Source of the DNA: a virus
Length of the DNA: 28,845 bases
Strand: one strand, 5' to 3'
Virus record (IMG/VR): IMGVR_UViG_3300013372_003692
Location: 1-28,845 of that record
In this document: positions 1,844 through 28,845 of the stretch, piece by piece
Layout of the letters: every line of letters begins with the position of its first letter
How positions within the stretch are numbered: position 1 is the stretch's first letter
Position numbers and translations under genes: made by a program
The notes under the pieces: generated by a model
Seen by the model: the letters and a program-made list of their open reading frames with translations, nothing else
What the model was told of the DNA's origin: nothing
Database searches by the model: none

Positions 1844-2965
1844 ATGATTTTGGCTGACCCGTCGGCAGAAAGAGCCGTATTGTCTGGTATCTGTAAATTT
1901 GGCGAAGAAGTTTATCTTGATATAGCAGATATTCTACAAGAGTCATCGTTTACCGTTGATAGTAATGGTATCATATTTAAGTGCATCAAAGAGATTTGCG
2001 AAAAGAATCAATCTAAATCTATAGATATAGCATCAATTTATTCTGTTGCTCAAGACTTTGGAGTGTCTCATGTATTATCAAGAAAAGAAGAGGCTCAACA
2101 TTTAAAGGCTATTATTGATTTTCCTGTTAATATAGAGAACATTCCCAAGTTCGCTGCTAAAATTAGAAAATTACAAATAGCAAGATTACTGTATGAGCAA
2201 CTAGATAAAGCTAAAGAAAAATTATTAGATGTAACTGGTAGCGAACCAGTAACAAGTATAATATCAATTGCTGAAGACACAGTATTTGATTTTACATCAT
2301 TAATTAATGATACAGATAATAATCCTGTGTGTATAGGTAATGATTTAGAAGCATATATTCAAAATTTAATTGATAATCCAATTGATCAAGTTGGTATTCC
2401 TACAGGATTTCCTGTTTATGATCAGGCTATTGGTGGTGGTTTAAGAAGAAGCACAGTTAATGTTATTGCCGCCAGACCTAAAACCGGAAAAACATTATTG
2501 GTTGATAATATGGGATTTTATATTGCAAATAAATTAAAAATACCTGTATTGAATATGGATACAGAAATGACTAAAGACGATCATATTAATCGTATTTTAG
2601 CAATGATAACGGAAACAGAAATCAATAATATAGAAACTGGTAAATTTGCAAATTCTCAAGACAAGAAAAAGAAGATTGAAAATGCTGTAAAAGAACTATT
2701 AAATACAAAATTATTTTATAAGTCTATTGCTGGAAAGCCTTTTGAGGAGCAATTGGCTTTAATGCGTAGATGGATTGTGAAAGAAGTTGGTCTTGAGGAT
2801 GATGGAACAGCAAAGCCATGTGTTATTTTTTATGATTATTTGAAGCTTATGGATAGTTCTGGAATGAGTCAAGATCTTAAAGAGTATCAAGTTCTAGGCT
2901 TCATGATGACCTCATTACATAATTTTGCAACTAGATATAAAGTACCGGTTGTGGCTTTTGTCTAA
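1844..2965 (+). CDS. dnaB: DnaB-family replicative helicase, N-terminal and core part up to an in-frame TAA
   Basis: Replicative 5'-3' helicase. The start follows a strong GGAGG site 8 bases upstream. Residues 1-110 are the DnaB N-terminal helical domain, opening with SAERAVLSGI. The RecA-like core follows: Walker A ARPKTGKT (210-217), the catalytic-glutamate strand NMDTEMT (E241), Walker B VIFYDYLKLMD (D331), and the H3 region ending VPVVAFV at residue 373. The next codon is TAA (2963-2965), then LNRDG in the same frame. DnaB proteins have QLNR here, so the stop stands exactly at the conserved glutamine; CAA to TAA is a single C-to-T change. A 373-residue product would lack the H4 motif and the arginine finger and should not work alone. 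Possible explanations are a real nonsense mutation, suppression or readthrough, or a base error in the assembly. Confidence 0.9.
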   Translation: MILADPSAERAVLSGICKFGEEVYLDIADILQESSFTVDSNGIIFKCIKEICEKNQSKSIDIASIYSVAQDFGVSHVLSRKEEAQHLKAIIDFPVNIENIPKFAAKIRKLQIARLLYEQLDKAKEKLLDVTGSEPVTSIISIAEDTVFDFTSLINDTDNNPVCIGNDLEAYIQNLIDNPIDQVGIPTGFPVYDQAIGGGLRRSTVNVIAARPKTGKTLLVDNMGFYIANKLKIPVLNMDTEMTKDDHINRILAMITETEINNIETGKFANSQDKKKKIENAVKELLNTKLFYKSIAGKPFEEQLALMRRWIVKEVGLEDDGTAKPCVIFYDYLKLMDSSGMSQDLKEYQVLGFMMTSLHNFATRYKVPVVAFV

Positions 2966-3310
2966 TTAAATAGAGATGGTATTACTAAAGAAAGCACAGA
3001 TACAGCAAGCGGCTCGGACAGAATTATTTGGCTATGTAGTAATTTTACCATTTTCAAAAGAAAGTCTGATGAAGAAATTGCAGAAGATGGTCCTAATGAG
3101 GGTAATAGAAAATTAATTCCAGTGATAAGCCGTCATGGTGGTGGTCTTGATGATAACGACTATATTAATTGTCACATGAAGGGCTGGTGTGCAAAAATTA
3201 CCGAAGGACGAACTAAACTAGAAATTGCTAATAATATTAACCAACAAAACACAAGTAATGGATTTATTTTAGATGACAACTCAAATGACAAAAACATCCC
3301 CTTCGTATAA
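2966..3310 (+). pseudogene. dnaB: C-terminal part of the DnaB helicase, in frame after the TAA
   Basis: Continuing the helicase frame past 2965 gives an uninterrupted 114-residue C-terminus. It starts LNRDGITKES (rest of the QLNR motif), continues TASGSDRIIWLC (the H4 strand, equivalent to DnaB EQDADVVLFL), and contains LIPVISRHGGG, equivalent to the AKNRNG arginine-finger strand. The protein would be 488 residues in all, a normal DnaB length. There is no ATG or TTG restart or SD near the TAA; the first possible in-frame start is a GTG at 3122, in the middle of the fold, so this does not look like a bona fide separate gene. It stays conserved in sequence, with no other stop and no frameshift, which argues for a very recent change, a sequencing error or active readthrough rather than old decay. 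Confidence 0.75.
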
Positions 3311-4424
3311 TCAACATCAATTAAAAGTTATATGCGATAATTTATGTGATAATATCGATAGGCTGTTAGAAACTTTAGACCTAACAGAAATTAATGATAA
3401 TGGTAAAATGTATGTTGGAGAATGCCCTATACATAATGGAGATAACAAAACAGCGTTCAATCTCTATCCAACAGGAGACTCTTATAGAGGCAACTGGAAG
3501 TGTAGAACACACCAGTGTGATAAAATATTTAAGGGATCTATTATTGGTTTTATTAGAGGCGTATTATCTACTAAAAAATATAATTGGCAAAAAGATGGAG
3601 ATAAAACGGCTACTTTTAAAGAAACAATAGAATTTATACAAAACTTCTTAGGGGATAATTTATCTAATATAAAAATATCAAAAACAGAAATAGAGAAAAA
3701 AACATTTTCAAATATTGTTAAAAATATAACTGAGGAATCATCTAATAATATTAAACAAAAAATTAATAGATCTAGTATTAGACAATCATTAATTATTCCA
3801 TCCGATTATTTTATTGACAGAGGTTTCGATAAGGAAATCTTAAATAGATACGATGTTGGGCTATGCAATAAGCAAGATAAAGAAATGTATAACAGAGCTG
3901 TTGCTCCAGTATATGATAATAATCACAAATATTTAGTTGGATGTACAGGTAGAAGTATTTTTGATAAGTGCGAAGTTTGTAAACATTATCATGATAAACA
4001 GAGGAGTTGTCCAAATAGTGAAGAGTTATGGAAATATCCTAAGTGGAAACATAATAAAGACTTTAAAAGCCAAAATCATTTATATAATTTTTGGTTCGCA
4101 AAAGAACATATTCTACAATCGGCAAAAGTTATTCTTGTTGAAAGTCCAGGTAATGTTTGGAAACTAGAAGAAGCTGGAATTCATAATTCTGTTGCTCTTT
4201 TTGGTTCAAACTTAAGCGATAGACAAAAAATAATGTTAGATGGATCTGGCGCTATGACTATAATAGTATTAATGGATAATGATGATGCCGGAAGAAAAGC
4301 AGCCACGACAATTAATCATAAGTGTAAAAATACATACAATATTATAAATCTAAATATAGATAAGGCAGATGTTGCCGAGATGTCCATAGAGGAAATTAAT
4401 CAACAAATTAAGAAATATATATGA
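3273..4424 (+). CDS. DnaG-type primase with CHC2-like zinc finger and Toprim domain
   Basis: Makes RNA primers for lagging-strand synthesis, working with the DnaB-type helicase encoded just upstream. The 383 residues show an N-terminal zinc finger (C51-P-I-H54, then C77-x2-H80-x-C82), a middle RNA-polymerase basic region (about 170-230, YFIDRGFDKEILNRYDVGLC), and a Toprim domain with E290 in VILVESPG and the metal-binding MDNDDAG (D335, D337). Between the basic region and Toprim sits an insert with CEVCKHYH and C246, a possible second metal site. The start overlaps the helicase end by 38 bases; another ATG at 3285 is possible. The gene ends with ATGA, shared with the kinase start. It is shorter than bacterial DnaG (about 580 residues) and shows no obvious helicase-binding domain. 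Confidence 0.88.
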   Translation: MTTQMTKTSPSYNQHQLKVICDNLCDNIDRLLETLDLTEINDNGKMYVGECPIHNGDNKTAFNLYPTGDSYRGNWKCRTHQCDKIFKGSIIGFIRGVLSTKKYNWQKDGDKTATFKETIEFIQNFLGDNLSNIKISKTEIEKKTFSNIVKNITEESSNNIKQKINRSSIRQSLIIPSDYFIDRGFDKEILNRYDVGLCNKQDKEMYNRAVAPVYDNNHKYLVGCTGRSIFDKCEVCKHYHDKQRSCPNSEELWKYPKWKHNKDFKSQNHLYNFWFAKEHILQSAKVILVESPGNVWKLEEAGIHNSVALFGSNLSDRQKIMLDGSGAMTIIVLMDNDDAGRKAATTINHKCKNTYNIINLNIDKADVAEMSIEEINQQIKKYI

Positions 4425-5017
4425 CAAAAATTATAGCTTTTGCTGGGACCAAACAATCTGGCAAAACCACATGCTCCGAGGCTGTTGCTACTTATTTTAA
4501 TGGATCTTTTGAACCATTCAATTCCTCAAAAATATATAATTTTGCAGATCCCCTAAAAAAAGATGTTTGCATGAATATTCTTGGATTAACATATGAACAG
4601 TGCTATGGATCAGACGAGGATAAAAACCAATTAACAAATAATTATTGGCAAGGTGTTCAACTAACCGCTAGAGAAGTCATGCAATTTGTTGGCACAGATA
4701 TATTTAGGAAAATGCAACAGGACGTTTGGGCTGGTGCAACAATACTAAAAATTAATAAAGAAAAACCACCATTAGCAATAATCGCAGATTGTAGATTCCC
4801 AAATGAAGTTGATGCTGTTAAGAAAGCCGGTGGTATTGTTATTAGATTAACACGCAAACCATTTGATTCTGATCATCCTAGCGAAAATGCTTTGGAACCC
4901 ATGGTCTATGATTGGAAAAATTTTGATTTTATATTACATAATGCAACAATGACTATAGATGAACAAAAATCGTTTATTATAGGCTATCTCCAAAGTAAAG
5001 GAATTTTACCATTATAA
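4421..5017 (+). CDS. Deoxynucleoside monophosphate kinase
   Basis: A phage T4 gp1-like kinase that phosphorylates deoxynucleoside monophosphates to diphosphates, feeding the DNA precursor pool. The 198 residues begin with a P-loop, GTKQSGKT (9-16). The family pattern follows: DPLKKDVC, the LTAREVMQFVGTDIFR segment, which resembles dNMP-kinase family sequence around the acceptor-binding region, and IADCRFPNEVDAVKKAGG with an arginine-containing strand IRLTR. Length is normal for the small phage version. It shares ATGA with the primase stop. Its stop lies inside the likely start region of the following nuclease, so this part of the operon is tightly coupled. No unusual residues are seen. Confidence 0.9.
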   Translation: MTKIIAFAGTKQSGKTTCSEAVATYFNGSFEPFNSSKIYNFADPLKKDVCMNILGLTYEQCYGSDEDKNQLTNNYWQGVQLTAREVMQFVGTDIFRKMQQDVWAGATILKINKEKPPLAIIADCRFPNEVDAVKKAGGIVIRLTRKPFDSDHPSENALEPMVYDWKNFDFILHNATMTIDEQKSFIIGYLQSKGILPL

Positions 5018-6054
5018 TTACTTATTTTCGCAGTAGTTCTTTTAATACTCATAATATGTGCGAGCAGCAATATTTTTTTGAGTATGTGCTAGGATGGAGA
5101 GGTCCGTCAAATCAAAAGGCCGACAAAGGGACTATTTGTCATAAAGTATTAGAAATTTTAGCAATTATAAAAAAGAATATTCAAGATGGTATACCAGAGT
5201 TTGAAGATGATTTAATTGGTAAAGTTAGTACAAATAACTATAATTTAGACAATATCATTGAATTAACATATAAATTTTATACAACTAATTTTAATCATCA
5301 TAAGTGGTCCGATAAAGATTTTAAAGATTGTAAATCATGGGTTTACAAAGCTATAGAATATAATAATCGAATGTTTGATCCAAGAAATAGAGACATATTA
5401 TGTCCAGAACAACACTTCGATATACTAATCGAAAAACCTTGGGCAAAGTATAGTTATGATTCACCAGATGGTCTGCTAGAAGGATACCTTGGTCTTAAAG
5501 GCACTATTGACCTTGTTACTAAAATAGATAACAATACTATAGAAGTGATAGATTGGAAAACCGGAAAAAGATTAGATTGGGCCACAGGACAAGAAAAAAC
5601 ACCAGAGAAGTTACAAAACGATCCTCAGTTAATGATTTATTATTATGCTATAAGTCGTTTATTTCCAGAATACGAACATATCATACTAACCATATATTTT
5701 ATTAACGATGGTGGTGCGTTCTCAATATTATTTGATAAGAGCGACTTGCTAAGAACAGAAGAAATGCTAAGAAAGAAATTTGAAATAATAAAACAAACTA
5801 AAAAACCAAGGTTGCATCAAACATGGATGTGTAGTAAACTATGTCACTTCGGAAAAACAAGTTTCGCTGACACCCACATCACACCAACTATTGAATATAG
5901 AGACAATCAACATTGTAAAAAAGATTCAATCATGACAAAGTGTGAACAAGTTAAGCATGATATAGAACTAAAAGGAATGAACGAAGTTATTAAAGAATAT
6001 AGATATCATAAACACTCATTTGGAAAATATAAGGCACCCGGTAGCACAGAATGA
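5011..6054 (+). CDS. Cas4/RecB-like PD-(D/E)XK nuclease with probable Fe-S cluster and non-ATG start
   Basis: Predicted single-strand exonuclease of the Cas4/AddB-like family, acting in recombination or DNA-end processing. Numbered from the ATG at 5056, the core has H29 (GTICHKVLE), D152 (LKGTIDLV), D166 and K168 (EVIDWKTG) and Q191-Y195 (QLMIYY), the full RecB-type set. C2, C259, C263 and a later Cys (C287 or C296) could hold a 4Fe-4S cluster; WMCSKLCHFGK is typical. The ATG at 5056 has no SD and cuts the family's N-terminal segment. Upstream in frame, open back to 4999, the sequence reads TYFRSSSFNTHNMCEQQYFF, the expected beginning. No ATG, GTG or TTG lies there, so I infer an ATT start at 5011, about 8 bases after AAGGA, or ATA at 5014. 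The gene ends with ATGA, shared with the polymerase. Confidence 0.82.
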   Translation: MIITYFRSSSFNTHNMCEQQYFFEYVLGWRGPSNQKADKGTICHKVLEILAIIKKNIQDGIPEFEDDLIGKVSTNNYNLDNIIELTYKFYTTNFNHHKWSDKDFKDCKSWVYKAIEYNNRMFDPRNRDILCPEQHFDILIEKPWAKYSYDSPDGLLEGYLGLKGTIDLVTKIDNNTIEVIDWKTGKRLDWATGQEKTPEKLQNDPQLMIYYYAISRLFPEYEHIILTIYFINDGGAFSILFDKSDLLRTEEMLRKKFEIIKQTKKPRLHQTWMCSKLCHFGKTSFADTHITPTIEYRDNQHCKKDSIMTKCEQVKHDIELKGMNEVIKEYRYHKHSFGKYKAPGSTE

Positions 6055-7934
6055 AAAATTATAATCCTTTACATTGTCACTCAATGTATTCTTTGCTAGA
6101 TGGCTTATCTAAGCCGTCTCAAATAGCAGATCGTTGTCAAGAAATTGGAGCAACTGCATGTGCGTTAACAGATCACGGTTCAATAGCCGGAGCTATTAAA
6201 TTTCACAAAGAGATGACTAAGGTTGGAATTAAGCCAATTTTAGGTTGTGAGATTTATCTCTGTAAGGATAGTCCAAATATTCAAAGTAAAGAAAATAGAC
6301 ACTTAACACATTTTTTGGTATTGGCCAAAAACCTTGAAGGATGGAGAAAACTCATTGGTTTAGTTTCAGAGTCTAACCGTCCAGATTTTTATTATCACAA
6401 GCCCAGACTTGATCTGGAAAATCTAGGGAGGTTCTGCGACGGCAATTTGATTGGAATTTGTGGACATCTAGGATCGTTAATTGCCGATAATATAATAGAT
6501 AATGGACAAATAATCTCAGACTGGAAAAACCAAGGAGAAAAAATTATTGGTCAATTAAGAGATATTTTTGGTAAAAATAATATTTTTCTAGAATCCCAAA
6601 TGATGGATCATATAAACACACCCATACAAAAAGAATTGACTGGTTGTATCAGAGAGCTTGGTAGAATAACAGACACTAAAATTATTTGTACTCCAGATGC
6701 ACATTATGTTAGAAAAGAAGATGCCTCTGATCAAAGAATACTTTTGTGTAATAATCTAAAAACAACCATGCCTGAAATTAGTCGCAAGATCAATATGAAC
6801 CAGCCAGTGCCAATGGACTGTTTTTTCTTATCAGATAATTTTCATATACTATCACAAGAAGAGATTAACAATCTTCACACAGAAGAAGAAATTGAAAATA
6901 CACAGTTGGTTTCTAATATGTGCGAGTCTTACGATATAAATAGTAGACCAAGATTACCGCCATTTGATTGTAAACCAAACCCAGATGAGTTCTTAAGACA
7001 ATTATGTAGAGATGGCTGGAGAGATAAGATAGCCAATAATATAGATAAGCAAAATCAACAAGAATATATAGATCGTATTAAATATGAATTAGATATTTTA
7101 CAGGGGGCTGGTCTTAGTAGTTATTTCTTGATTGTGCAAGATATCGTGAACCATGTTAAAATGAACGACTGGCTACCCGGACCAGGAAGAGGATCTGCTG
7201 CTGGTTGTTTAGTTTCATATCTAATAGGTATAACTAATATTGATCCTATAAAATACAGTTTATTGTTTGATAGATTTTATAATTCTGGTCGTAATACAAA
7301 AGATAGAGTTAGTATGCCAGATATTGATGTTGACGTACCAATAGAAAAAAGAGAAGACATTATTACGTATATTAAAAATAAGTATGGTAATAATCAGGTT
7401 TCTCAGATGGTTACTTTTAATACGATTAAGGGTCGTGGTGCTATAAAGGATGTTCTCAGAGTTTATGGTAACATATCTTTTGAGGAAATGAATAGAATTA
7501 CCAAAAATATACCAGACGAAGCTAAAATAGCAGACGAGTTGCAAGAAATGAAGGACGAATACGGCGAAGCCTCTATCATAAGATGGGCTTTAGAAAACCA
7601 AGGAGAAAAACTCAAAGATTGGTGTCATATTGACGAAAATAATGAATTACAAGGACCACTTGCAAAAAGATTTGAGCAGGCTATAAGATTAGAGGGTACT
7701 AAAGTTAACCAATCTAAACATGCCGCTGGGGTAGTTATAGCAGATACAGATTTGTCAACAATTTGCCCAACTATTTATGACACAAAAACAAAAACAAAAA
7801 TTGCTGGTATGGAAATGGAAGACTTAGAAAGTATTGGAATTGTTAAATTTGATATTCTAGGTGTTGCGATGCTGGATAAAATTATGTATATTTCTAAATA
7901 TCTTAAAGAAGGAGTTACAGATGAAATTTCATGA
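6051..7934 (+). CDS. dnaE: DNA polymerase III alpha, N-terminal half (PHP and palm)
   Basis: N-terminal half of a C-family replicative polymerase encoded in two pieces. The 627 residues open with a PHP domain: HCHSMYSLLDG (H8, H10), LTDHGS (D41, H42) and GCEIYL (E67). The palm includes LPGPGRGSAAG (375-385), the catalytic triad region PDIDVDV (D424, D426, D428), GRGAIKDVLRVYG, and the last catalytic aspartate in IVKFDILG (D601). It stops about 25 residues after that aspartate, at the border between palm and fingers in bacterial DnaE. All three catalytic acidic positions are therefore here, while fingers, clamp-binding and OB domains are encoded downstream at 8789. The end shows no intein motifs. 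The last 14 bases overlap the next small gene, whose AAGGAG site lies inside this one. Confidence 0.9.
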   Translation: MKNYNPLHCHSMYSLLDGLSKPSQIADRCQEIGATACALTDHGSIAGAIKFHKEMTKVGIKPILGCEIYLCKDSPNIQSKENRHLTHFLVLAKNLEGWRKLIGLVSESNRPDFYYHKPRLDLENLGRFCDGNLIGICGHLGSLIADNIIDNGQIISDWKNQGEKIIGQLRDIFGKNNIFLESQMMDHINTPIQKELTGCIRELGRITDTKIICTPDAHYVRKEDASDQRILLCNNLKTTMPEISRKINMNQPVPMDCFFLSDNFHILSQEEINNLHTEEEIENTQLVSNMCESYDINSRPRLPPFDCKPNPDEFLRQLCRDGWRDKIANNIDKQNQQEYIDRIKYELDILQGAGLSSYFLIVQDIVNHVKMNDWLPGPGRGSAAGCLVSYLIGITNIDPIKYSLLFDRFYNSGRNTKDRVSMPDIDVDVPIEKREDIITYIKNKYGNNQVSQMVTFNTIKGRGAIKDVLRVYGNISFEEMNRITKNIPDEAKIADELQEMKDEYGEASIIRWALENQGEKLKDWCHIDENNELQGPLAKRFEQAIRLEGTKVNQSKHAAGVVIADTDLSTICPTIYDTKTKTKIAGMEMEDLESIGIVKFDILGVAMLDKIMYISKYLKEGVTDEIS

Positions 7935-8103: not shown

Positions 8104-8799
8104 ATGTTAACTAAAAAAATTTGTGTTTTTGATTTTGAAACTGATGGCTCTGATCCAGAATCATGTAGTCCTGTTCAATTAGCCGCAGTCATGATTGATC
8201 CTGTCAAGTTAGAAATAATTGATGGATCAGAATTTAATGTTCATTGTAAGCCAGAAGTAATAGAAAAAAATCCCGACTATATTTATGAAACTGATATTAT
8301 AGATTTTCATTCTAGAGTGAAAGGATGTAGTCAAGAAGATATTTATAAAGAGTGGAGACAATATCCTTCTCAACAAATAGCATGGAATTCTTTTATTTCA
8401 TATTTAGACAAGTATCATTGCTTTGGTAGAAAGAAAAAAAATATATTTACAGCACCTATAGCTGCTGGATATAATATTAATAGATTTGATTTAAAAATTA
8501 TCAATAGACTAAGCCAGAAATACAAGACTATTGAACCAAAAGAAAAAACATCATCTCTGTTTTATCCAAGAGATGTTCTTGATATTATGAATTTAGTTTT
8601 TTATTGGTTTGAAAGTTCGGATCTAAAAAGTTATTCTTTGGATACTGTTAGAGAATATCTTGGTATTTCAAAAGATGGTGCTCACGATGCCTTGAAAGAC
8701 GTTAAAGACTGTGCTATGATACTAACTAGGTTTATGAGATTGCACAGGAAATTATGTCCAAAAATTTCATTTAAAGGATCTTTTTTGAATGACGATTAA
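8104..8799 (+). CDS. DnaQ-like 3'-5' proofreading exonuclease (DEDDh)
   Basis: Proofreading exonuclease, the expected partner of the DnaE-type polymerase encoded on both sides. The 231 residues carry Exo I VFDFETDG (D10, E12), Exo II AGYNINRFDLKII (D129) and Exo III AHDALKDVKD (H194, D199), the DEDDh arrangement of the epsilon subunit. An insert of about 50 residues between Exo I and II contains DIIDFHSRVKG, resembling the epsilon region that precedes a 'thumb' helix. No clear QxxLxLF-type clamp-binding motif is seen. The gene starts six bases after the small protein and overlaps the polymerase C-half by 11 bases, so alpha-N, epsilon and alpha-C are made from one message. That order suggests assembly of a phage polymerase core. 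Confidence 0.9.
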   Translation: MLTKKICVFDFETDGSDPESCSPVQLAAVMIDPVKLEIIDGSEFNVHCKPEVIEKNPDYIYETDIIDFHSRVKGCSQEDIYKEWRQYPSQQIAWNSFISYLDKYHCFGRKKKNIFTAPIAAGYNINRFDLKIINRLSQKYKTIEPKEKTSSLFYPRDVLDIMNLVFYWFESSDLKSYSLDTVREYLGISKDGAHDALKDVKDCAMILTRFMRLHRKLCPKISFKGSFLNDD

Positions 8800-10387
8800 G
8801 TTTAATTGCGGTTGTGAATTCAATAGTAATAGTGATAGTAAATTACATATTGATTATGATATAAATAAAATAAAGTTTGATTGCCCAAAAACTTGGGATA
8901 TGATTTCTGAAGGAAACACTAAAGGTGTTTTTCAATTAGAGTCTAGGTTAGGGCAGAGTATGGCTAAAAAACTTAAGCCCGAAAATATTGAGCAATTAGC
9001 CGCGCTAATTAGTATCATGAGACCGGGTTCTCTAGAAGCTTTTAGAGAAGGTAAAAGTGTTAGTAATCATTATATAGACAAAAAGAATGGTCAAGAAAGT
9101 CTTGATTATTTTCATCCTACATTAGAGCCATGTTTAAAGGCTACTTATGGAGAAATGATTTATCAAGAACAGGCTATGGAAATTGCCAAAGTGGTTGCTG
9201 GATTTGATCTACAAGAAGCTGATATGTTAAGAAAAGCTATTGGTAAGAAAAAACCAGAAGAAATGGCCAAAATCAAAAATAAATTCATTAGCGGATGCAA
9301 TAATCTTGGCAAGGTTACTAATAATGAAGCGGAGCAGTTGTTTGGTTGGATAGAAAAAAGTCAAAGGTATTCATTTAATAAAAGCCATGCTGTTAGTTAT
9401 GCTGTAAATGCCTTTATGTCCGCTCATGCTAAGGCTCATTTTCCTACTATCTTTTTCTTATCATATCTTAGACTAGCCAAAGATAAAATAGATCCTCAAG
9501 AAGAAATTCTTGAATTGATCATTAATGCTAAGTCTATGGATATAGATATTTTTTGTCCCACTATGGTGCTTAAAAATAAAGATTTTAAAATTCAAAATAA
9601 AAAGATATATTTTGGATTAACTAATATCAAGGGTGTTGGTCAATCTGTGTTTGATAAATTATATGGAATTATTGCCGATATAGATTTAATTAAATACACT
9701 TGGAGCGAAACATTATTTTATATATTATTAAATATTAATTCGACAGCAGCCAAAGCATTGATTCAGTCTGGTGCGTTAGATTACTTAAAAGTCTCAAGAA
9801 ATCAAATGCTATATGAGTTTAATCTGGTCTGCGAACTGACAAAAAAAGAAACTGAAAATACAATTAAATTAATCAAAGATAATCCAAAATTACAAATCAT
9901 TGACTTAATAAGGCAGTTAATCGCTAATACCAAAATTTCTAAGAATAGACAGCAAAAAGTCCTAAGTATAGTTAATCAACTATCAGAACCACCATATTCT
10001 CTTGTAGATAGTCCAGAATGGATATCTGATAACGAAAGAGAATTACTGGGTGCTCCAATAACCTGTACTAAAACAGATTCTTATGATTCATCATACGCAA
10101 ATACTGATTGTAAAGATATTCGTAATTTTCCAGATACTAAACAGTTTTTTATTATAGCAGAAATTCAATCTGTTAATATTATTGTAACTAAGCGTGGAAG
10201 ATCTCCTGGAAAAGAAATGTGTTTTATACAAATATCAGACTCTTATGGCAGTCTAGATTGTGTATTATTTCCAGAAGAATTTACCGAGAATAAAGCATTA
10301 TTACAGGCTGGTAGAGTATTGATGTTTAATGGACAGAAGTCAAAAAAGGATAGTTCTGTGATCATAAAAAAAATCTTTGTTGTATAG
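8789..10387 (+). CDS. dnaE: DNA polymerase III alpha, C-terminal half (fingers, HhH, OB)
   Basis: C-terminal half of the split polymerase, 532 residues. A short N-terminal extension with FNCGCEF (C7, C9) and DCPKTWDMISEGNTKGVFQLESR leads into the fingers domain. The DnaE landmarks follow in order: ISIMRPGSLEAF, TYGEMIYQEQAMEIA, GFDLQEADMLRKAIGKKKPEEM (starting near 138), and YSFNKSHAVSYA (194-203). A helix-hairpin-helix region follows (about 275-340, GLTNIKGVGQSVFDKL), then an OB-fold domain over the last 85 residues (FFIIAEI to IIKKIFVV). The N-half ends at the palm, so together they equal one DnaE with nothing essential missing. The start overlaps the exonuclease by 11 bases. The gene ends with TAG, 2 bases before the ssb promoter. 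Confidence 0.9.
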   Translation: MTIKFNCGCEFNSNSDSKLHIDYDINKIKFDCPKTWDMISEGNTKGVFQLESRLGQSMAKKLKPENIEQLAALISIMRPGSLEAFREGKSVSNHYIDKKNGQESLDYFHPTLEPCLKATYGEMIYQEQAMEIAKVVAGFDLQEADMLRKAIGKKKPEEMAKIKNKFISGCNNLGKVTNNEAEQLFGWIEKSQRYSFNKSHAVSYAVNAFMSAHAKAHFPTIFFLSYLRLAKDKIDPQEEILELIINAKSMDIDIFCPTMVLKNKDFKIQNKKIYFGLTNIKGVGQSVFDKLYGIIADIDLIKYTWSETLFYILLNINSTAAKALIQSGALDYLKVSRNQMLYEFNLVCELTKKETENTIKLIKDNPKLQIIDLIRQLIANTKISKNRQQKVLSIVNQLSEPPYSLVDSPEWISDNERELLGAPITCTKTDSYDSSYANTDCKDIRNFPDTKQFFIIAEIQSVNIIVTKRGRSPGKEMCFIQISDSYGSLDCVLFPEEFTENKALLQAGRVLMFNGQKSKKDSSVIIKKIFVV

Positions 10388-10892: not shown

Positions 10893-12485
10893 ATGAAAAA
10901 AAAACGAATATTAATGTGTGCAGAAGCACATGATATAAATTCTGGATTTGGTAGATATACCAAGGAAATACTACAAAGATTATATAATAATCCTAATTAT
11001 GAGATCGCAGAATTTGCTTCTTATTTTAACTATGGTAAAACAAAAACAGTACCGTGGAAAGTTTATGCAAATGCTGTAGATGACTCTCATCCGGAAGCCG
11101 AGAACTACAAAAAAAATCCACTTAATCAATTTGGTTTATGGCGTTTCGATAAAGTGGTATCTCATTTCAAGCCAGATATTGTTTTTGATATTAGAGATTA
11201 TTGGATGTTTGCTTATCAAGAGATGTCTGCGTTTAGAAAATATTTTCATTGGGTAATTGCTCCTACTGTAGACTCTATACCTCAAAGAACAGAGTGGTTG
11301 AAAACTTTTGAAAACGCAGATGTTGTTCTTACTCATACAGACTGGGCTGGCGATTATTTGAGATCATTAAATAGAAAAATAAATGTTGGCGGTTGTGTGT
11401 CTGATTCTGTTGATCCAGACACTTTTAAGCCCGTAAATTGGACAAAAAACTTTCATAAGACTAGGTATAATATACCATCAAATTCTGTTGTTATTGGTTC
11501 TGTTATGAGAAATCAGAAACGCAAATTAATAGCAGAATTATTCTCAAGTCTTAAAAAATTATTATCCATATCTAGTAATAAAAATATATATTTGTATCTA
11601 CATACGTCTTTTCCAGAACCTGCTGGATGGGACATACCGCAATTACTACAAGAATATGGGGTATATAACAATGTTTTATTTACCTATTATAATCCACAAT
11701 CTAAGAATATTCTAGTTTCTCCATTCAAAGGAGCAATTTTTGCAAACGACAAGAACGAAACTTATATATTTCCTAATGTGGTAAATGGCGTAAACAACGA
11801 CCAACTATGTGAAATTTATAATTTATTTGATATTTATGTTCAGTATGCAATTTGCGAAGGTTTGGGCATACCACAATTAGAGGCAGCGGCTTGTGGAATA
11901 CCATTATTTTCTGTTAATTATAGTGGAATGGAAGAAATTACCTCTAAAGTAGATGGAGTAAAACTCCGCTATTTATTAAGTAAAGAATTGGAGACGGGTT
12001 CTGATAGAGCAACACCAGACAATGATCATCTAATTGCAGAAATTTTAAAATGGATGGATAAATCAACTCTAGAAAAGAAAAAAATATCTAAAAGAACAAG
12101 AGAATTATTAGTTGATAATTATAGCTGGGATATAACTGCTAATAATTTAATGAAAGTATTTGATAGTTTGGAACCAAAAAACATATGGCATGAGCCTTTA
12201 CAATTTAACACTTCCTTAAGTGCTCCTATTTCACTACCAAATCGTAGTTTTATTAATTTTGTTATTGATAATATTCTTATGGAACCAAAGTTAAAAAATA
12301 CACATTTTGCACAATCTATAATAAAAAATTTAGACGAATCGTGTTTTGGTCTTAGTCAAGACTTGGTAATTAAAAAAAGACAAGAAGCACTAAAGCCACT
12401 AGAAATGTATATGAATAGTAAAATGTCATGTGAACAAATTAGGTCGGGGCAAACTATTCTTTCTGATGACTTTTTATCTCAATGA
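10893..12485 (+). CDS. GT4-like glycosyltransferase, 530 residues
   Basis: Predicted GT-B-fold glycosyltransferase (GT4-like) using a nucleotide sugar. The N-terminal Rossmann domain has ILMCAEAHDINSGFGRYTKEIL with the glycine-rich turn (SGFGRY). The linker reads SDSVDPDTFKP, the usual 'V-D-x-x-x-F-x-P' site, and the second domain carries GSVMRNQKRK (202-211) and the E-x7-E motif CEGLGIPQLEAAACG (E322, E330). About 150 extra residues follow the catalytic domains (beyond 375), of unknown function. The gene begins 10 bases after the ssb terminator with no SD or promoter that I can recognise, so it may be translated weakly or from a transcript starting close to the ATG. It overlaps the next glycosyltransferase by 4 bases (ATGA). 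The acceptor, either a host envelope glycan or a phage component, cannot be told from sequence. Confidence 0.85.
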   Translation: MKKKRILMCAEAHDINSGFGRYTKEILQRLYNNPNYEIAEFASYFNYGKTKTVPWKVYANAVDDSHPEAENYKKNPLNQFGLWRFDKVVSHFKPDIVFDIRDYWMFAYQEMSAFRKYFHWVIAPTVDSIPQRTEWLKTFENADVVLTHTDWAGDYLRSLNRKINVGGCVSDSVDPDTFKPVNWTKNFHKTRYNIPSNSVVIGSVMRNQKRKLIAELFSSLKKLLSISSNKNIYLYLHTSFPEPAGWDIPQLLQEYGVYNNVLFTYYNPQSKNILVSPFKGAIFANDKNETYIFPNVVNGVNNDQLCEIYNLFDIYVQYAICEGLGIPQLEAAACGIPLFSVNYSGMEEITSKVDGVKLRYLLSKELETGSDRATPDNDHLIAEILKWMDKSTLEKKKISKRTRELLVDNYSWDITANNLMKVFDSLEPKNIWHEPLQFNTSLSAPISLPNRSFINFVIDNILMEPKLKNTHFAQSIIKNLDESCFGLSQDLVIKKRQEALKPLEMYMNSKMSCEQIRSGQTILSDDFLSQ

Positions 12486-13582
12486 GTAATATTCTATATA
12501 TAGGTCCGTATCGTGAATTTACAGGAATGGGTAATGCTGCCAGACAGTATATCAAAGCATTGTTAGTTGCTGGACACAATATTGGTATTCGTCCAATATA
12601 CAATATATTTAAGGCATATCCAGAAAAAGATATTGATTATGAAATACTAGAACTAGAATCTAATATTTCTAAGCCATATGATATTCTAATTCAACACTGC
12701 TATCCACACCAACTGTATTACGATAATCGTTTTCAAAAAAATATTGGTATTATACATTTAGAATCTAATAATTATTATTCTAATCTTAGTAATTATATCA
12801 ATATGATGGATGAAATTATTGTGGGGAGTAATTTCGTACATAAAACTTTGTCTTCTATTAATTTTAACAAACCAATTAAGGTTGTGCCAGAGCCTATAGA
12901 TTTAGAATTTATTAAAAAATATAGAGATAATAATGCTAGATCTATTAAAAATAACTATTCTTTTTATGCTATTGGGGATCTATCAGAAAGAAAAAATCTA
13001 TATGAGATTGTAAAAGCTTTTGTTGTAGCATACGATACCGATGATAATGTTGATTTAGTTTTAAAAATTATTAGCAATCAGGAAAGAGTAGCTACTGATC
13101 AAGAAATTGAGTATGAATTAAATAAAATATATTCACGAATCAAGAAAAACTATGAGAAGCGTCCCCGCATAGTATTTGGAGATATAGACTACCATTCAAT
13201 GCTTTATCTACACAATAATAATGACTGTTTTATAAATGTATCTAGCGGCGAAAGTTTTGGTTATTCTACTTTAGAAGCTATGGCTTTTAATAATCAACTT
13301 ATCGTAAACGATCATATTGGCAGCTCTGAGATTATTGATGAAGATTGTGGCTTATTTAATAATGTCTACAAAAGAAGTTGCGAAGATTCATCAAGACTAT
13401 ACCATATATATAATTCTTATCATCAGTCTTGGCACAAGCCAGAAATTGATAGTTTAATTGTAAATATGAACACGGCAAGAAATGAATCTAAAGAAAATCG
13501 TGAAAAAAGAGTAGAAAAACAAAATGATAGACTAAATAATTTTTCTATAGAATCAATATCTAAAACATTAATTAATATATGA
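12482..13582 (+). CDS. GT4-like glycosyltransferase, 366 residues
   Basis: Second predicted GT-B glycosyltransferase. It opens NILYIGPYREFTGMGNAARQYIKAL, where the glycine-rich GMGNAAR turn matches the GT4 N-terminal domain. VVPEPIDLEF (134-143) is the inter-domain linker, AIGDLSERKNLYEIVKAF (163-180) holds the Arg/Lys pair that binds the nucleotide diphosphate, and GESFGYSTLEAMAFNN carries E257 and E265 (E-x7-E). Length is normal for a one-domain-pair GT4 enzyme, shorter than the preceding protein. It is coupled to neighbours on both sides by ATGA overlaps, so glycosyltransferases and the following small proteins form an operon. The sugar donor and acceptor are not evident. Confidence 0.85.
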   Translation: MSNILYIGPYREFTGMGNAARQYIKALLVAGHNIGIRPIYNIFKAYPEKDIDYEILELESNISKPYDILIQHCYPHQLYYDNRFQKNIGIIHLESNNYYSNLSNYINMMDEIIVGSNFVHKTLSSINFNKPIKVVPEPIDLEFIKKYRDNNARSIKNNYSFYAIGDLSERKNLYEIVKAFVVAYDTDDNVDLVLKIISNQERVATDQEIEYELNKIYSRIKKNYEKRPRIVFGDIDYHSMLYLHNNNDCFINVSSGESFGYSTLEAMAFNNQLIVNDHIGSSEIIDEDCGLFNNVYKRSCEDSSRLYHIYNSYHQSWHKPEIDSLIVNMNTARNESKENREKRVEKQNDRLNNFSIESISKTLINI

Positions 13583-17383: not shown

Positions 17384-17836
17384 ATGGTAAATGTTTATTC
17401 TCAAGGTGGTAAAATTGTATTGAGGGATGGCAAAATAGCAACAAGTAATTCATGTTGTTGTGGTACTGCTCCTAATTGCACTGGATTTTGTGAAGGGTGG
17501 AGTGTATTTGATAATTATATATTAACAATAACAAGCACCATGGGAAACTATACTCTTCAAGGAAATGGTGATGTTTGGTATGATCCAGAGTTAGGGATAT
17601 CTGTTTCTCTTGTTTGTACAACATATATACCTTGTGGTGAAGTATTAGAGGTTAGTGTTGGCGCATATGTAGATATATACTTTGGCTTTTATCCAAATCT
17701 GACACTAGCTAGAGCCATATTGGGGCGAGCAAAAGAACCAAATTGTAATACTGGTGGTAATTTAAATAATAAAACATTTAACATCTTTAGCTGTGATGAT
17801 AGTGTTACAGGAACGCTGGAGTTTACTGTTCCTTAA
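17384..17836 (+). CDS. Cysteine-rich unknown protein, possibly virion-associated
   Basis: A 150-residue protein, not recognised. It begins with NVYSQGGKIVLRDGKIATSN, a short beta-hairpin-like start, followed directly by the cysteine cluster SCCCGTAPNCTGFCEG, then beta-rich sequence with further cysteines (VCTTYIPCGE, EPNCNTGG, IFSCDD). There is no transmembrane helix and no normal signal peptide. Cysteine clusters also occur at the end of the large minus-strand tail protein (18445-22302), so a structural or surface role is possible, but this is only compositional similarity. It starts 2 bases after the zinc-ribbon gene, without a clear SD of its own. Confidence 0.5.
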   Translation: MVNVYSQGGKIVLRDGKIATSNSCCCGTAPNCTGFCEGWSVFDNYILTITSTMGNYTLQGNGDVWYDPELGISVSLVCTTYIPCGEVLEVSVGAYVDIYFGFYPNLTLARAILGRAKEPNCNTGGNLNNKTFNIFSCDDSVTGTLEFTVP

Positions 17837-18444: not shown

Positions 18445-21400
18445 TTACGGACTGCCGCCGTCTGTGCCACCACCACCACACTCGTCGATCTTTGCGCAAA
18501 AATCTGATTCTGATGTTTCTTCACATTCAGTAAACGGATACAATGTTAAGCAATTACTTTCATTTAGACCAATTAATCCTGGTGCTGTACCCAGAGATGT
18601 AAAACAACTAGATAATCCGCAATCATCGTTTGGGCATTCAGATTCTGATTCTGAAGAGGAAGATTCTGATGAGGAGGATTCTGATGAGCAACAACTGTTA
18701 TCTGATGACGAACCTATATTAGACTCAAGCACGATATATCTCTTATCTTCATAATAAGCATAAACTCTTGAACCTTTACAGATACTGCGCCCCAAATAAT
18801 CATATATAGTAATTTGTACAGATTTAAGGGATGTACCCAAATTTTCTCCATTATCCCCGTAGATTGGATAATCATCATAATATATTTTACTATCTGCTGA
18901 AGGATTTAACAAAATAGCTTTCGCAGATTTATAAGGCGATAATTCTTCTATTAATTGTGCGACAAGAATTCTTTCAGAGGGAGGAGATACCCATACGCCC
19001 CTATCTCTATCCCATCTTAAATCTATTGGGCCAACAGGCCATGTTTTAGGATTAGACAACCAATTTGGCATAAACTTATTTTTTGTTCCGTGTCTTTTAA
19101 ATTTGCCACTCTCTGTGTCTGAAGGAGAGTCTACAGCATTAGGAATAGGTTTACCTTCTGTGTCATAGCCCCATGATTGTAATACAAGTGGTCCTCTTAG
19201 ACCCAAAAAGCCAAAGTCTGTTTCAGCCTGTCTTTTTTCATCTGTTCCAAAAATTTCTTGAATTTTATCTCCGTAAGTAAGAAATAAAATATTAAAACCT
19301 TTTGTTGATGATCCTTTTCTATCGTCCCATTTGCTTAATAAGGCATAGGATGTTATTGGATTTATATACTCTTGATGAATATTTAATTTATTTGTAGTAA
19401 TTGGTGGCATTACTGGTCGTGATCTATGTATTGGTGTTTTATTAGTGACCGAAGATATCGTGTTCTTTGCTGTATATTCTGAAAATCTACTAAGCCTATC
19501 ATGTCTTCCATCAATAGATACTGGACTAAATAAACCATCTATAGAAATTGATCCTATGTTCCAAAAAGCCTCATTAGAAAATGACATATCAACTTCGTTC
19601 TGAGGATATAGTCCAACACTAATTGTTCTTTTAATTGTACCTGATCCTGTTACAGACTCTGTGCCAGTCGAACCAGAAGATTGTGTATATGATTTTAATT
19701 CTTCACAAGTTAATGACTCTACTGCCGTTGCAACAGATTCTGACTGACCTGAGTCTGATGAAGAATTATTTTTAGATACGGTATCGAAAAAGCCACCAAT
19801 TAATAATACTGATGGACTGTTTTTGTTATCTGCTGCTTCATTAGGATCTTTTTTGAAAGGATTTCTTTCATATTTCCTTTTTTCAAAGTCATTTAAAATA
19901 CTATTAATTTCATTTCTAGATTTTTTCCTATTCTCTTTAAATAGTTTAATAGAAGATGATCTATCTTTATTCATCTGTTGTAAAGTTGCAGAAACAGCTT
20001 GTCCATACTGACCAAATTTCGGAATATGTGTTTTAAATGAATATGTTGTCGTTGATCCTTGAGCGCCATAAACAACATTCATGCTATCAAGAATCATAGC
20101 ATAGTTTTGTATAAAATATTGTATATTCCATCCTGGTGGTTCTGCTATAGTAACAGATCCAGAAAATTCCTTATTGACTGGTCTAATTGCTTGCAATGCT
20201 AATGCTTCACCAGCAATATTCATTGCAGAATAACCTCCAAAACTCCATGGATTTAATGATGAATCAACCACAACATCTGTTGATCCAATAGACAGAGATG
20301 AACTACCCCATGGACCATAAACATATATATTACTTTTCATTGGCACGCAAGCCGCTTCTGGTCTAGCAGCAACTGGTGTTAGTTGAAATATGTTTAAAGA
20401 CTGAATAGGATTTATTCCTTGATCTTTGAGTTGATTTAATTTATCTGGAAAAAGGGCCGCAAATGTTCTCAAAGCAGTAGTCAGAATACGCTTACCACCT
20501 GGAAAATTAATAAGAGGAATCATATCAGATTCAACTAGTATTTGTGATTTATTTTTATATCTAATAATTTCTAAAGCACCATTAATTTTTATAAAAATAT
20601 TTGGAGATTCATTTAGACTATTACTATCTAGAGTATGTGAGCTAAACGTAAAATCCACTGGTTGCCGATTGATTGCAGCAGATACTTTATCCTTTGAATT
20701 AAATCTCAAAAAACCATTATATTTACCATCTGTTGTTTCAAAAAATTCTTTATTTTTTAATTGTAAAATATTACCATTTTGTTGAGATGGACTTGGATAT
20801 CCATCACTAGTGGGATAGTCTGATAAAAGATACGGACCACCCTCACCCTGTATAATTTCAGGAGGATTTGCAGGATAAACACAAGGACTATTAATTGGAA
20901 TAAACCATTTTTTACCATAATATTCTTGAACAAAATTAGTAAACCATCTCCAGCATTGGATAAATTTTAATAAATCATCAGTCTGTTGATCTGCGGGTGC
21001 TTGATTAATACCTTTTATTTTAGCAAGATTATCATTGATAGTGTCAGGATCATTAGCATTATTTATAGTTGTAAAAGCAACTAACATTTCATTCATCAAT
21101 GCGTTTATTCCTAATATAGTTTGAATTCTAGCAGATAAACTATTTGGCTTAATAGCTCCATAAAGCAACCAGATTTCTTGTGTTTTTGTTGCTAGTATCT
21201 CCGTCTCGTCAATTGCAAAACTATCTCCTAGTCCTCCTCCTAAAAGAGTATTAATAGCCGATGTATTTATCTTTACTCCTTTAAAAGGAGTTCCTTGCGC
21301 TCTAACAATAGAACCGTCCTCTAAATATCCTAACATCATATCAACATTATTTTTAAATGAAACCTCAGATAAATAATTTACATTATCTCCAATAATAATT

Positions 21401-22302
21401 CTGTTGCTTTTTTCGTATAGTTCAACCTCTCCTTCTTCGCTATTTATTAAAGTTCCAGTACTTTTGGCTTGTTTAATAAGATAAGTTATTGGGGAGCTTG
21501 TAACAGCAACTGATCTATCAACTGTCCAAATTATGATAGTATTGCCTTCTAAAGTTGTGAAAGTATCACAAGCAGCATCTCTAGATGCTTGATCTATTAT
21601 TTCTCCAATAGTCATCGATGAGCTAGATGTTATAGACCATTCTGGCGTAACAGCTATTAACCTACTAAGATCCAAATTCAACTGGTCGGCGCCTGATGTT
21701 GTAAAAATTCTTCCACCAGAATCTATCTGTAATCTTTGTAAAACCTTTAATAAAGATATTCCATTTTGTGAACTACTGGTTCCTGGTCCAGAAGTTCCAA
21801 AACCAGTACAAGATTGAACACGCGGCCAATTTTGACTATCTTCTCCAGGAGGACAAACAGCGCAAGTCACTCCTTCTTGGAAATACGCAAAATTAATAAA
21901 ATTCGGCATCGTTGCTATAGCAGCATCATTGCAGTAGTAGTCTTTCAGTAAAACAGAAACATTATCTAAAATTTTTCTTGGATCAATAATTTTAAATTTA
22001 TATGTATAGCCATTACTAGATTCTGAAACGGATGCACTATTAATTATTCCACCAAATGCAAATGCTGTTGTAGTAGAAAAGAATTTGACTGCTCTGCCAA
22101 CATCTGGTAAAGTAAATCCAACCCCAGCATCTGTGCCACACGGATCAACAACTAATTCTAAATCCAATATTGAACTATTTGAGCCTATACCAATATTAAT
22201 ATTGAAATTTAATAAATAAATTGATCCTGTAAAAACCCTACCTCCACCATTAGCATAGATCATATCAAAAGCAGAGCTAATAGTTTTACAAGTTGTGGTC
22301 AT
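18445..22302 (-). CDS. Large phage tail/tip protein (1285 residues) with Ser/Glu/Cys-rich C-terminus
   Basis: Last gene of the minus-strand virion block. The N-terminal 600 or so residues are beta-rich and resemble tail-hub or tail-tip proteins: VFTGSIYLLNFNINIGIG, YTYKFKIIDPRKIL, LRLQIDSGGRIFTTSG-like turns. A central region (about 730-800) has a long charged stretch with coiled-coil tendency (KDRSSSIKLFKENRKKSRNEI). A C-terminal region has WGYDTEGKPIPNA, GPIDLRWDRDRGVWVSPP and VQITIYDYLGRSICKGSRVY, a pattern I associate with uncharacterised phage tail proteins. The end is low-complexity (SSSESSSSESESE) with many cysteines (SCCSSE, ECPNDDCGLSSCF). I do not recognise an enzymatic domain. It starts 1 base after the previous stop. 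Tail assignment is from length, composition and neighbours. Confidence 0.7.
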   Translation of the reverse strand: MTTTCKTISSAFDMIYANGGGRVFTGSIYLLNFNINIGIGSNSSILDLELVVDPCGTDAGVGFTLPDVGRAVKFFSTTTAFAFGGIINSASVSESSNGYTYKFKIIDPRKILDNVSVLLKDYYCNDAAIATMPNFINFAYFQEGVTCAVCPPGEDSQNWPRVQSCTGFGTSGPGTSSSQNGISLLKVLQRLQIDSGGRIFTTSGADQLNLDLSRLIAVTPEWSITSSSSMTIGEIIDQASRDAACDTFTTLEGNTIIIWTVDRSVAVTSSPITYLIKQAKSTGTLINSEEGEVELYEKSNRIIIGDNVNYLSEVSFKNNVDMMLGYLEDGSIVRAQGTPFKGVKINTSAINTLLGGGLGDSFAIDETEILATKTQEIWLLYGAIKPNSLSARIQTILGINALMNEMLVAFTTINNANDPDTINDNLAKIKGINQAPADQQTDDLLKFIQCWRWFTNFVQEYYGKKWFIPINSPCVYPANPPEIIQGEGGPYLLSDYPTSDGYPSPSQQNGNILQLKNKEFFETTDGKYNGFLRFNSKDKVSAAINRQPVDFTFSSHTLDSNSLNESPNIFIKINGALEIIRYKNKSQILVESDMIPLINFPGGKRILTTALRTFAALFPDKLNQLKDQGINPIQSLNIFQLTPVAARPEAACVPMKSNIYVYGPWGSSSLSIGSTDVVVDSSLNPWSFGGYSAMNIAGEALALQAIRPVNKEFSGSVTIAEPPGWNIQYFIQNYAMILDSMNVVYGAQGSTTTYSFKTHIPKFGQYGQAVSATLQQMNKDRSSSIKLFKENRKKSRNEINSILNDFEKRKYERNPFKKDPNEAADNKNSPSVLLIGGFFDTVSKNNSSSDSGQSESVATAVESLTCEELKSYTQSSGSTGTESVTGSGTIKRTISVGLYPQNEVDMSFSNEAFWNIGSISIDGLFSPVSIDGRHDRLSRFSEYTAKNTISSVTNKTPIHRSRPVMPPITTNKLNIHQEYINPITSYALLSKWDDRKGSSTKGFNILFLTYGDKIQEIFGTDEKRQAETDFGFLGLRGPLVLQSWGYDTEGKPIPNAVDSPSDTESGKFKRHGTKNKFMPNWLSNPKTWPVGPIDLRWDRDRGVWVSPPSERILVAQLIEELSPYKSAKAILLNPSADSKIYYDDYPIYGDNGENLGTSLKSVQITIYDYLGRSICKGSRVYAYYEDKRYIVLESNIGSSSDNSCCSSESSSSESSSSESESECPNDDCGLSSCFTSLGTAPGLIGLNESNCLTLYPFTECEETSESDFCAKIDECGGGGTDGGSP
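18641..18688. repeat. Imperfect GATTCT/GATGAG hexanucleotide run (low-complexity)
   Basis: A run of imperfect six-base units (GATTCT, GAAGAG, GATGAG, GAGGAG). Read on the minus strand it encodes the Ser/Glu-rich part (SSESSSSESSSSESESE) of the tail of the 1285-residue protein. Such runs change length by slippage. Confidence 0.8.
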
Positions 22303-27725: not shown

Positions 27726-27744
27726 AATTAAGTCCTATTTTCCT

Positions 27745-28845
27745 TTAGTAATTAGCATTAGCGCTAGATGTTTTTATCCAGTTATTATTACCAGCATGAA
27801 TAAAACCAATATTATTATTGCTATATAAAATCTCAAGTGATGATGGTGAACCAACTTTATATATACTTATAATGTTAGATCCTATATTAAATATATGTAT
27901 TTTTTTGCCTAAATATAATCCAGTGCCATTGGGTAAATAAACATCACCAGTGCCTGTTGCATGTAAAAATTGGTATTCAGCATCGTTGCTGGATAGGTAA
28001 TTTGGATTTGATGGAACACCAGAGGTTGCTAATGTTTCATATCTAAGTTTACTGTTAACATATGGATTATTAGAATCATTTTGATAAATTATTTTATGTA
28101 TTTGATTAACTCCAGTTGGCATAACAGATGGAGTTATATTTAATCCTGTTGGCGTTGTTAGAAAATTAAAAGTTAATCCACTGTTAGTAATTAGATTACC
28201 ACTAGAAATTATATTTTGAAAAATTCCAGTTGAACCTAGCATAACATTACCAGAAGCAAAACTAAAGTTTGCATTACCAGAAGCTGTTAGGTTATTAGTA
28301 ATTATATTAGAGCTAAAAATACCAGTTCCAGAACATACTAAGTTGGTTCCTATGGTTATACCAGAATTTGTAATAATATTTCCAGAACTAATTAAATTAC
28401 CACCAATAGTAACTCCAGAGTTTATAATAGCATTACCAGATACTAGGATATTTCTATTAAATACAAAGTTTTCAGAACTGCTTTTGATAATCGATCCACT
28501 TGGATCTAGTATAATATGATTTTGATTATTAACATATAAACGAATACTGTTGTTGCCGCTAAATGAAACCGATTCATTATTAGATAATATAATATTGCTA
28601 TTACCACTAGATGTGATACCAGAACCAACTAAAATATTAGAATTTCCAATAGAATTAGATAAATTAGCAAGAATGACTGAGTTATTACCAGAAATATCTG
28701 ATGAAGAACCGAATATGAAATTAGACAATCCACTTGTGGAAGAATTATCCCCAACAAGAATATTATTATTTCCAGATGAATATAGTCTTGATCCAACAAG
28801 AAATCCTCCATCACCATATAATTCATTATTATAACCAAATAAAAT
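27745..28845 (-). CDS. Fibre/adhesin-like protein with glycine-asparagine repeats (5' end outside window)
   Basis: The frame is open to the right edge, so the TTG at 28728 is not a needed start; 366 residues are visible. From the edge to about 28525 there are repeats of about 14 residues built on 'S-G-N-x-N-I-L-V-G' (YSSGNNNILVGDNSSTSGLS, ISGNNSVILA, SIGNSNILVGSG, SSGNSNIILS), like the heads of trimeric autotransporter adhesins. From 28452 to 28165 another set repeats 'S-G-x-x-I-x-x-N-L-x-S-S-G-N-I-I-T-N'. These fit left-handed or triple-stranded beta structures of tail fibres. A C-terminal domain follows with GTGDVYLPNGTGLYLGKKIHIFNIG, similar to the ends of many phage fibres, closing NNNWIKTSSANANY. 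It probably binds the host surface. A host-derived adhesin fold is possible. Confidence 0.75.
   Translation of the reverse strand: MLFGYNNELYGDGGFLVGSRLYSSGNNNILVGDNSSTSGLSNFIFGSSSDISGNNSVILANLSNSIGNSNILVGSGITSSGNSNIILSNNESVSFSGNNSIRLYVNNQNHIILDPSGSIIKSSSENFVFNRNILVSGNAIINSGVTIGGNLISSGNIITNSGITIGTNLVCSGTGIFSSNIITNNLTASGNANFSFASGNVMLGSTGIFQNIISSGNLITNSGLTFNFLTTPTGLNITPSVMPTGVNQIHKIIYQNDSNNPYVNSKLRYETLATSGVPSNPNYLSSNDAEYQFLHATGTGDVYLPNGTGLYLGKKIHIFNIGSNIISIYKVGSPSSLEILYSNNNIGFIHAGNNNWIKTSSANANY
28165..28845 (-). repeat. Two sets of Gly/Asn-rich coding repeats in the fibre gene
   Basis: Two adjacent sets of degenerate protein repeats inside the fibre-like gene. One runs from 28525 to the right edge with the core SGNxNIxVG; the other runs from 28452 to 28165 with the core SGNxIxNSGxTIGxNL. 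At DNA level the copies are diverged (for example TTACCAGAA-type units recur), so they are best seen in translation. Confidence 0.65.

Follow-up and report, generated by a model that had tools for sequence, protein, structure and literature searches.

A lone TAA at the motif H4 glutamine codon of a phage DnaB-type helicase is very probably a private nonsense change

In crAss-like phages using genetic code 15, TAG is read as glutamine, many genes are interrupted by this codon and suppressor tRNAs are predicted, and this recoding has been experimentally validated (PMC9523058). The virus record analysed here, a stretch of 28,845 bases that we refer to as the window, resembles these phages in that glutamine is the residue at an in-frame stop, but unlike them it carries TAA and not TAG, at one codon of one gene, and no tRNA was found in the window or its 95.3-kb sister record. 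The gene itself shares with the DnaB-family replicative helicases (PF00772 and PF03796) both domains and the alignment at the motif H4 glutamine, while differing from them in that the window copy is broken at exactly this residue. A third point of comparison is provided by singleton nonsense mutations or consensus errors in metagenome-assembled phage genes, in which one private base interrupts a gene that is intact in near-identical records; this applies to the window and to a further helicase locus (L047), and the stop in the window differs from other such singletons only in that it falls, conspicuously, on a motif residue. The features concerned are the following.

1844..3310, + strand: DnaB-family replicative helicase gene; frame with one internal stop that ends with TAA at 3308-3310 (translation, Pfam, PDB comparison)
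1844..2965, + strand: truncated ORF of 373 codons under standard translation (ORF list, translation)
2963..2965, + strand: TAA in place of the conserved glutamine codon of motif H4, which is CAA in three near-identical contigs
2966..3310, + strand: remainder of the helicase frame, with few or no differences from the intact copies in the sisters
3273..4424, + strand: primase-type gene with a Toprim domain, intact, sharing 38 bases with the 3' end of the helicase gene

Translation of positions 1844-3310 yielded 488 residues with codon 374 (2963-2965, TAA) as the sole internal stop, where the DNA reads gtc taa tta aat aga gat ggt and the protein context is AFV-Q-LNRDG. Pfam analysis of the read-through frame recovered the N-terminal DnaB domain (PF00772, 1.8e-9) as well as the C-terminal domain (PF03796, 2e-26), with the score of the latter increasing from 82 to 93 bits upon reading through the stop and the match continuing past it. 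Comparison with PDB entries aligned VPVVAFV[Q]LNR to a solved DnaB chain containing VQLNR, gap-free at the stop site. Translation and alignment thus confirmed the original prediction of a helicase frame with only one stop, located at the glutamine of QLNR. Both family domains are present in the read-through frame, and the complete C-terminal ATPase domain from motif H4 onward is absent from the standard ORF and intact in relatives. The 373-residue product retains the Walker A part (ARPKTGKT), while motif H4 is missing along with the last 114 residues of the frame.

The helicase gene is surrounded by the end of a recombinase gene and by genes for a DUF7836-like protein, the primase, a dNMP kinase and a PD-(D/E)XK nuclease, and further genes encode DNA polymerase III alpha, an exonuclease, SSB and glycosyltransferases; such a set belongs to a phage that carries a replication module of its own, and the gene labels assigned beforehand from the letters alone held in domain and profile searches. 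Near this module, the two glycosyltransferase genes and the deoxynucleotide monophosphate kinase gene (10893-13582 and 4421-5017) might hint at DNA with modified, glycosylated bases. Two separate genes (6051-7934 and 8789-10387) encode DNA polymerase III alpha; the break separates the finger domain from the part with PHP and alpha NTPase (palm), and an RNase_T-type (DnaQ-like) exonuclease gene (8104-8799) lies between the halves. This arrangement is kept in about 50 related loci and leaves little room for inteins at the junction; a split polymerase III alpha is already known from some jumbo phages (PMC7824862).

To survey relatives, IMG/VR was scanned with patterns placed away from the stop codon and hence unbiased at the site, which returned 80 loci of 72-100% identity. 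Among the relatives are three near-same phages from other datasets, 99.4-99.8% identical to the window, all of which have CAA at position 2963.

L002: 99.4% identity over 8.9 kb, CAA at the site
L003: 99.8% identity over 3.7 kb, CAA at the site; ends at window position 3746
L004/G001, a 95.3-kb record: 99.8% identity across the initial 15.9 kb and 99.5% in the 11.8 kb that follow, CAA at the site

The change from CAA to TAA by one transition, as originally proposed, was therefore borne out. Altogether, 196 retrieved loci cover the site, with CAA in 116, CAG in 80 and a stop in none; many of these were retrieved by means of a CAR pattern, and overlapping copies of a single contig occur among them, so that the figures count only as relatives. 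A near-exact pattern of 38 bases across the site, with C or T allowed, matched only the three sister contigs among 2.9 million viral contigs, all with C. A collection-wide degenerate scan for TAA at the helicase motif revealed no relative; its single match (L094) was rejected as a second TAA-bearing relative, since it arose by chance on the antisense strand of a gyrase-like gene and not in a helicase. The corresponding collection-wide pattern scan for TAG at the motif gave no match. No named phage was matched by the helicase gene in blastn, and the named relatives found by protein share less than 60% identity. All relatives checked for CAA or TAA thus have CAA or CAG with the window as the lone exception, a pattern that, by the reasoning of the original prediction itself, refutes the recoding idea. 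A different singleton was encountered in the helicase of L047, in which TGA occupies the residue aligned to window codon 448, a conserved tryptophan elsewhere (MKG-W-C); this matching case shows that lone stops occur at about 1 in 80 helicase genes in this material.

Comparison of the first 9.7 kb with the sister contigs revealed 19 differences private to the window, comprising 13 synonymous changes, 5 missense changes and 1 nonsense change, the helicase TAA. For random changes in these genes, about 29% synonymous and about 3% nonsense changes are expected, so that 13 synonymous changes out of 19 are improbable (P ~4e-4), while the probability of at least one nonsense change among the 19 is ~0.46 if changes are random. 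Given this synonymous excess, most private differences are real and have passed the filter of selection, and the record is a broadly sound, selected genome with the nonsense change as the exception. The latter stands out as a change not yet seen by selection, or not in the molecule at all. The nearest upstream change setting the window apart from all sisters lies at 2404, and downstream there is no such change up to 3746, where L003 ends, making the stop the only distinguishing change between 2405 and 3746 (558 bases upstream and 780 downstream). The flanks match those of the sisters and thus show no adaptation around the stop. No other gene in the window record is visibly disrupted, so that errors are not widespread in it, and an apparent nonsense difference at 17492 in a sister proved to be two adjacent changes in one codon (GAA to TAT) and not a stop.

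Elsewhere, the window and its 95-kb sister differ by mostly synonymous change in the replication genes, whereas a gene of 1,285 aa (18445-22302, - strand) has 19 differences, all missense, and a gene of 150 aa (17384-17836, + strand) has 10 differences with 0 synonymous. Neither gene matched a PHROG or Pfam family, and the pattern of change suggests that they may encode surface or host-interaction proteins under fast, possibly positive, selection. Positions 27730-28011, the C-terminal end of a minus-strand gene (27745-28845), either fail to align with the sister, which is 99.5% identical elsewhere, or are strongly diverged from it, and look like a recombined or hypervariable region.

Taken together, we regard it as very probable that this nonsense codon stems from a C-to-T change private to the record, representing either a rare defective genotype or a sequencing or assembly error, and that it has no recoding function. 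C would have been replaced by T at the first position of the CAA codon, in one genome or in one consensus sequence. If the change is real, translation would end at 373 residues and presumably yield a product that, as a hexameric DnaB helicase deprived of motif H4 and the 114 residues at its C-terminal end, would be inactive; the mutant genome could then be maintained only if complemented, or would be a dead end within its population. Its route into the database may have been a consensus that caught a rare, defective or co-infection-dependent genotype, or one base that was miscalled or mis-assembled; a sequence error would have no biological consequence.

Very improbable, in our view, is the reading that UAA is decoded as glutamine, through a host or phage suppressor tRNA or through programmed readthrough, to give a full-length or amount-controlled helicase. 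The frame is intact on both sides of the stop, the codon is one change away from CAA, and the lesion falls on the motif glutamine just as glutamine-inserting suppression would look; however, a single random change from CAA to TAA looks equally so, and no relative conserves the stop, even at 99.8% identity. The lack of any other change between 2405 and 3746 likewise speaks against it, as does stop codon usage. With the helicase counted at its normal end, the 28 genes of the window end with TAA (19), TGA (7) or TAG (2), so that the prior remark that all three stops end genes here was right in outline, and most of the TAA-ended genes directly abut or overlap the next gene. Across 9,503 codons there is no internal stop besides the helicase TAA, and the 321 glutamine codons are ordinary CAA or CAG. 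ARAGORN detected no tRNA, and thus no phage suppressor tRNA as had been envisaged, in either the window (28.8 kb) or the sister record of 95.3 kb, both of which are possibly incomplete. The RNA 3' of the stop folds no better than shuffled sequences (z = -0.95), and an Rfam search gave no matching element. The site thus shows neither a stop and context conserved in relatives nor a 3' stimulating structure, the marks of programmed readthrough, and the stop that a recoded phage would have reassigned is neither inside many genes nor rare as a terminator. Of the three options originally offered, fresh mutation and assembly error stand, while UAA suppression or readthrough inserting glutamine lost its support with CAA or CAG in all relatives and no tRNA detected in the window or its 95-kb sister.

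Similarly improbable is a functional truncation, in which the 373-residue protein would have a separate regulatory role or the helicase would be made as two polypeptides. The analogy is that the same phage encodes DnaE as two halves, but about 50 loci share the split of DnaE, whereas the helicase gene is intact in all relatives and split in none, and we rejected the analogy on these grounds. Moreover, the 114-residue remainder (2966-3310) has no start near its beginning, the first one listed being GTG at 3122, which would leave motif H4 untranslated. An altered code for TAA was rejected on stop usage, with TAA terminating 19 of 28 genes and occurring internally once in 9,503 codons. We consider it extremely unlikely that one phage lineage has kept a recent ochre allele of its essential helicase gene thanks to a host tRNA that suppresses ochre codons by inserting glutamine; were suppression true, this phage would read UAA as Gln, in contrast to code 15 of crAss-like phages, in which TAG is the codon read as Gln.

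As a very probable private nonsense change or sequence error, the stop in this helicase mainly calls for caution with lone in-frame stops at conserved residues in metagenome-assembled phages, a question that was resolved here by comparing near-identical contigs.
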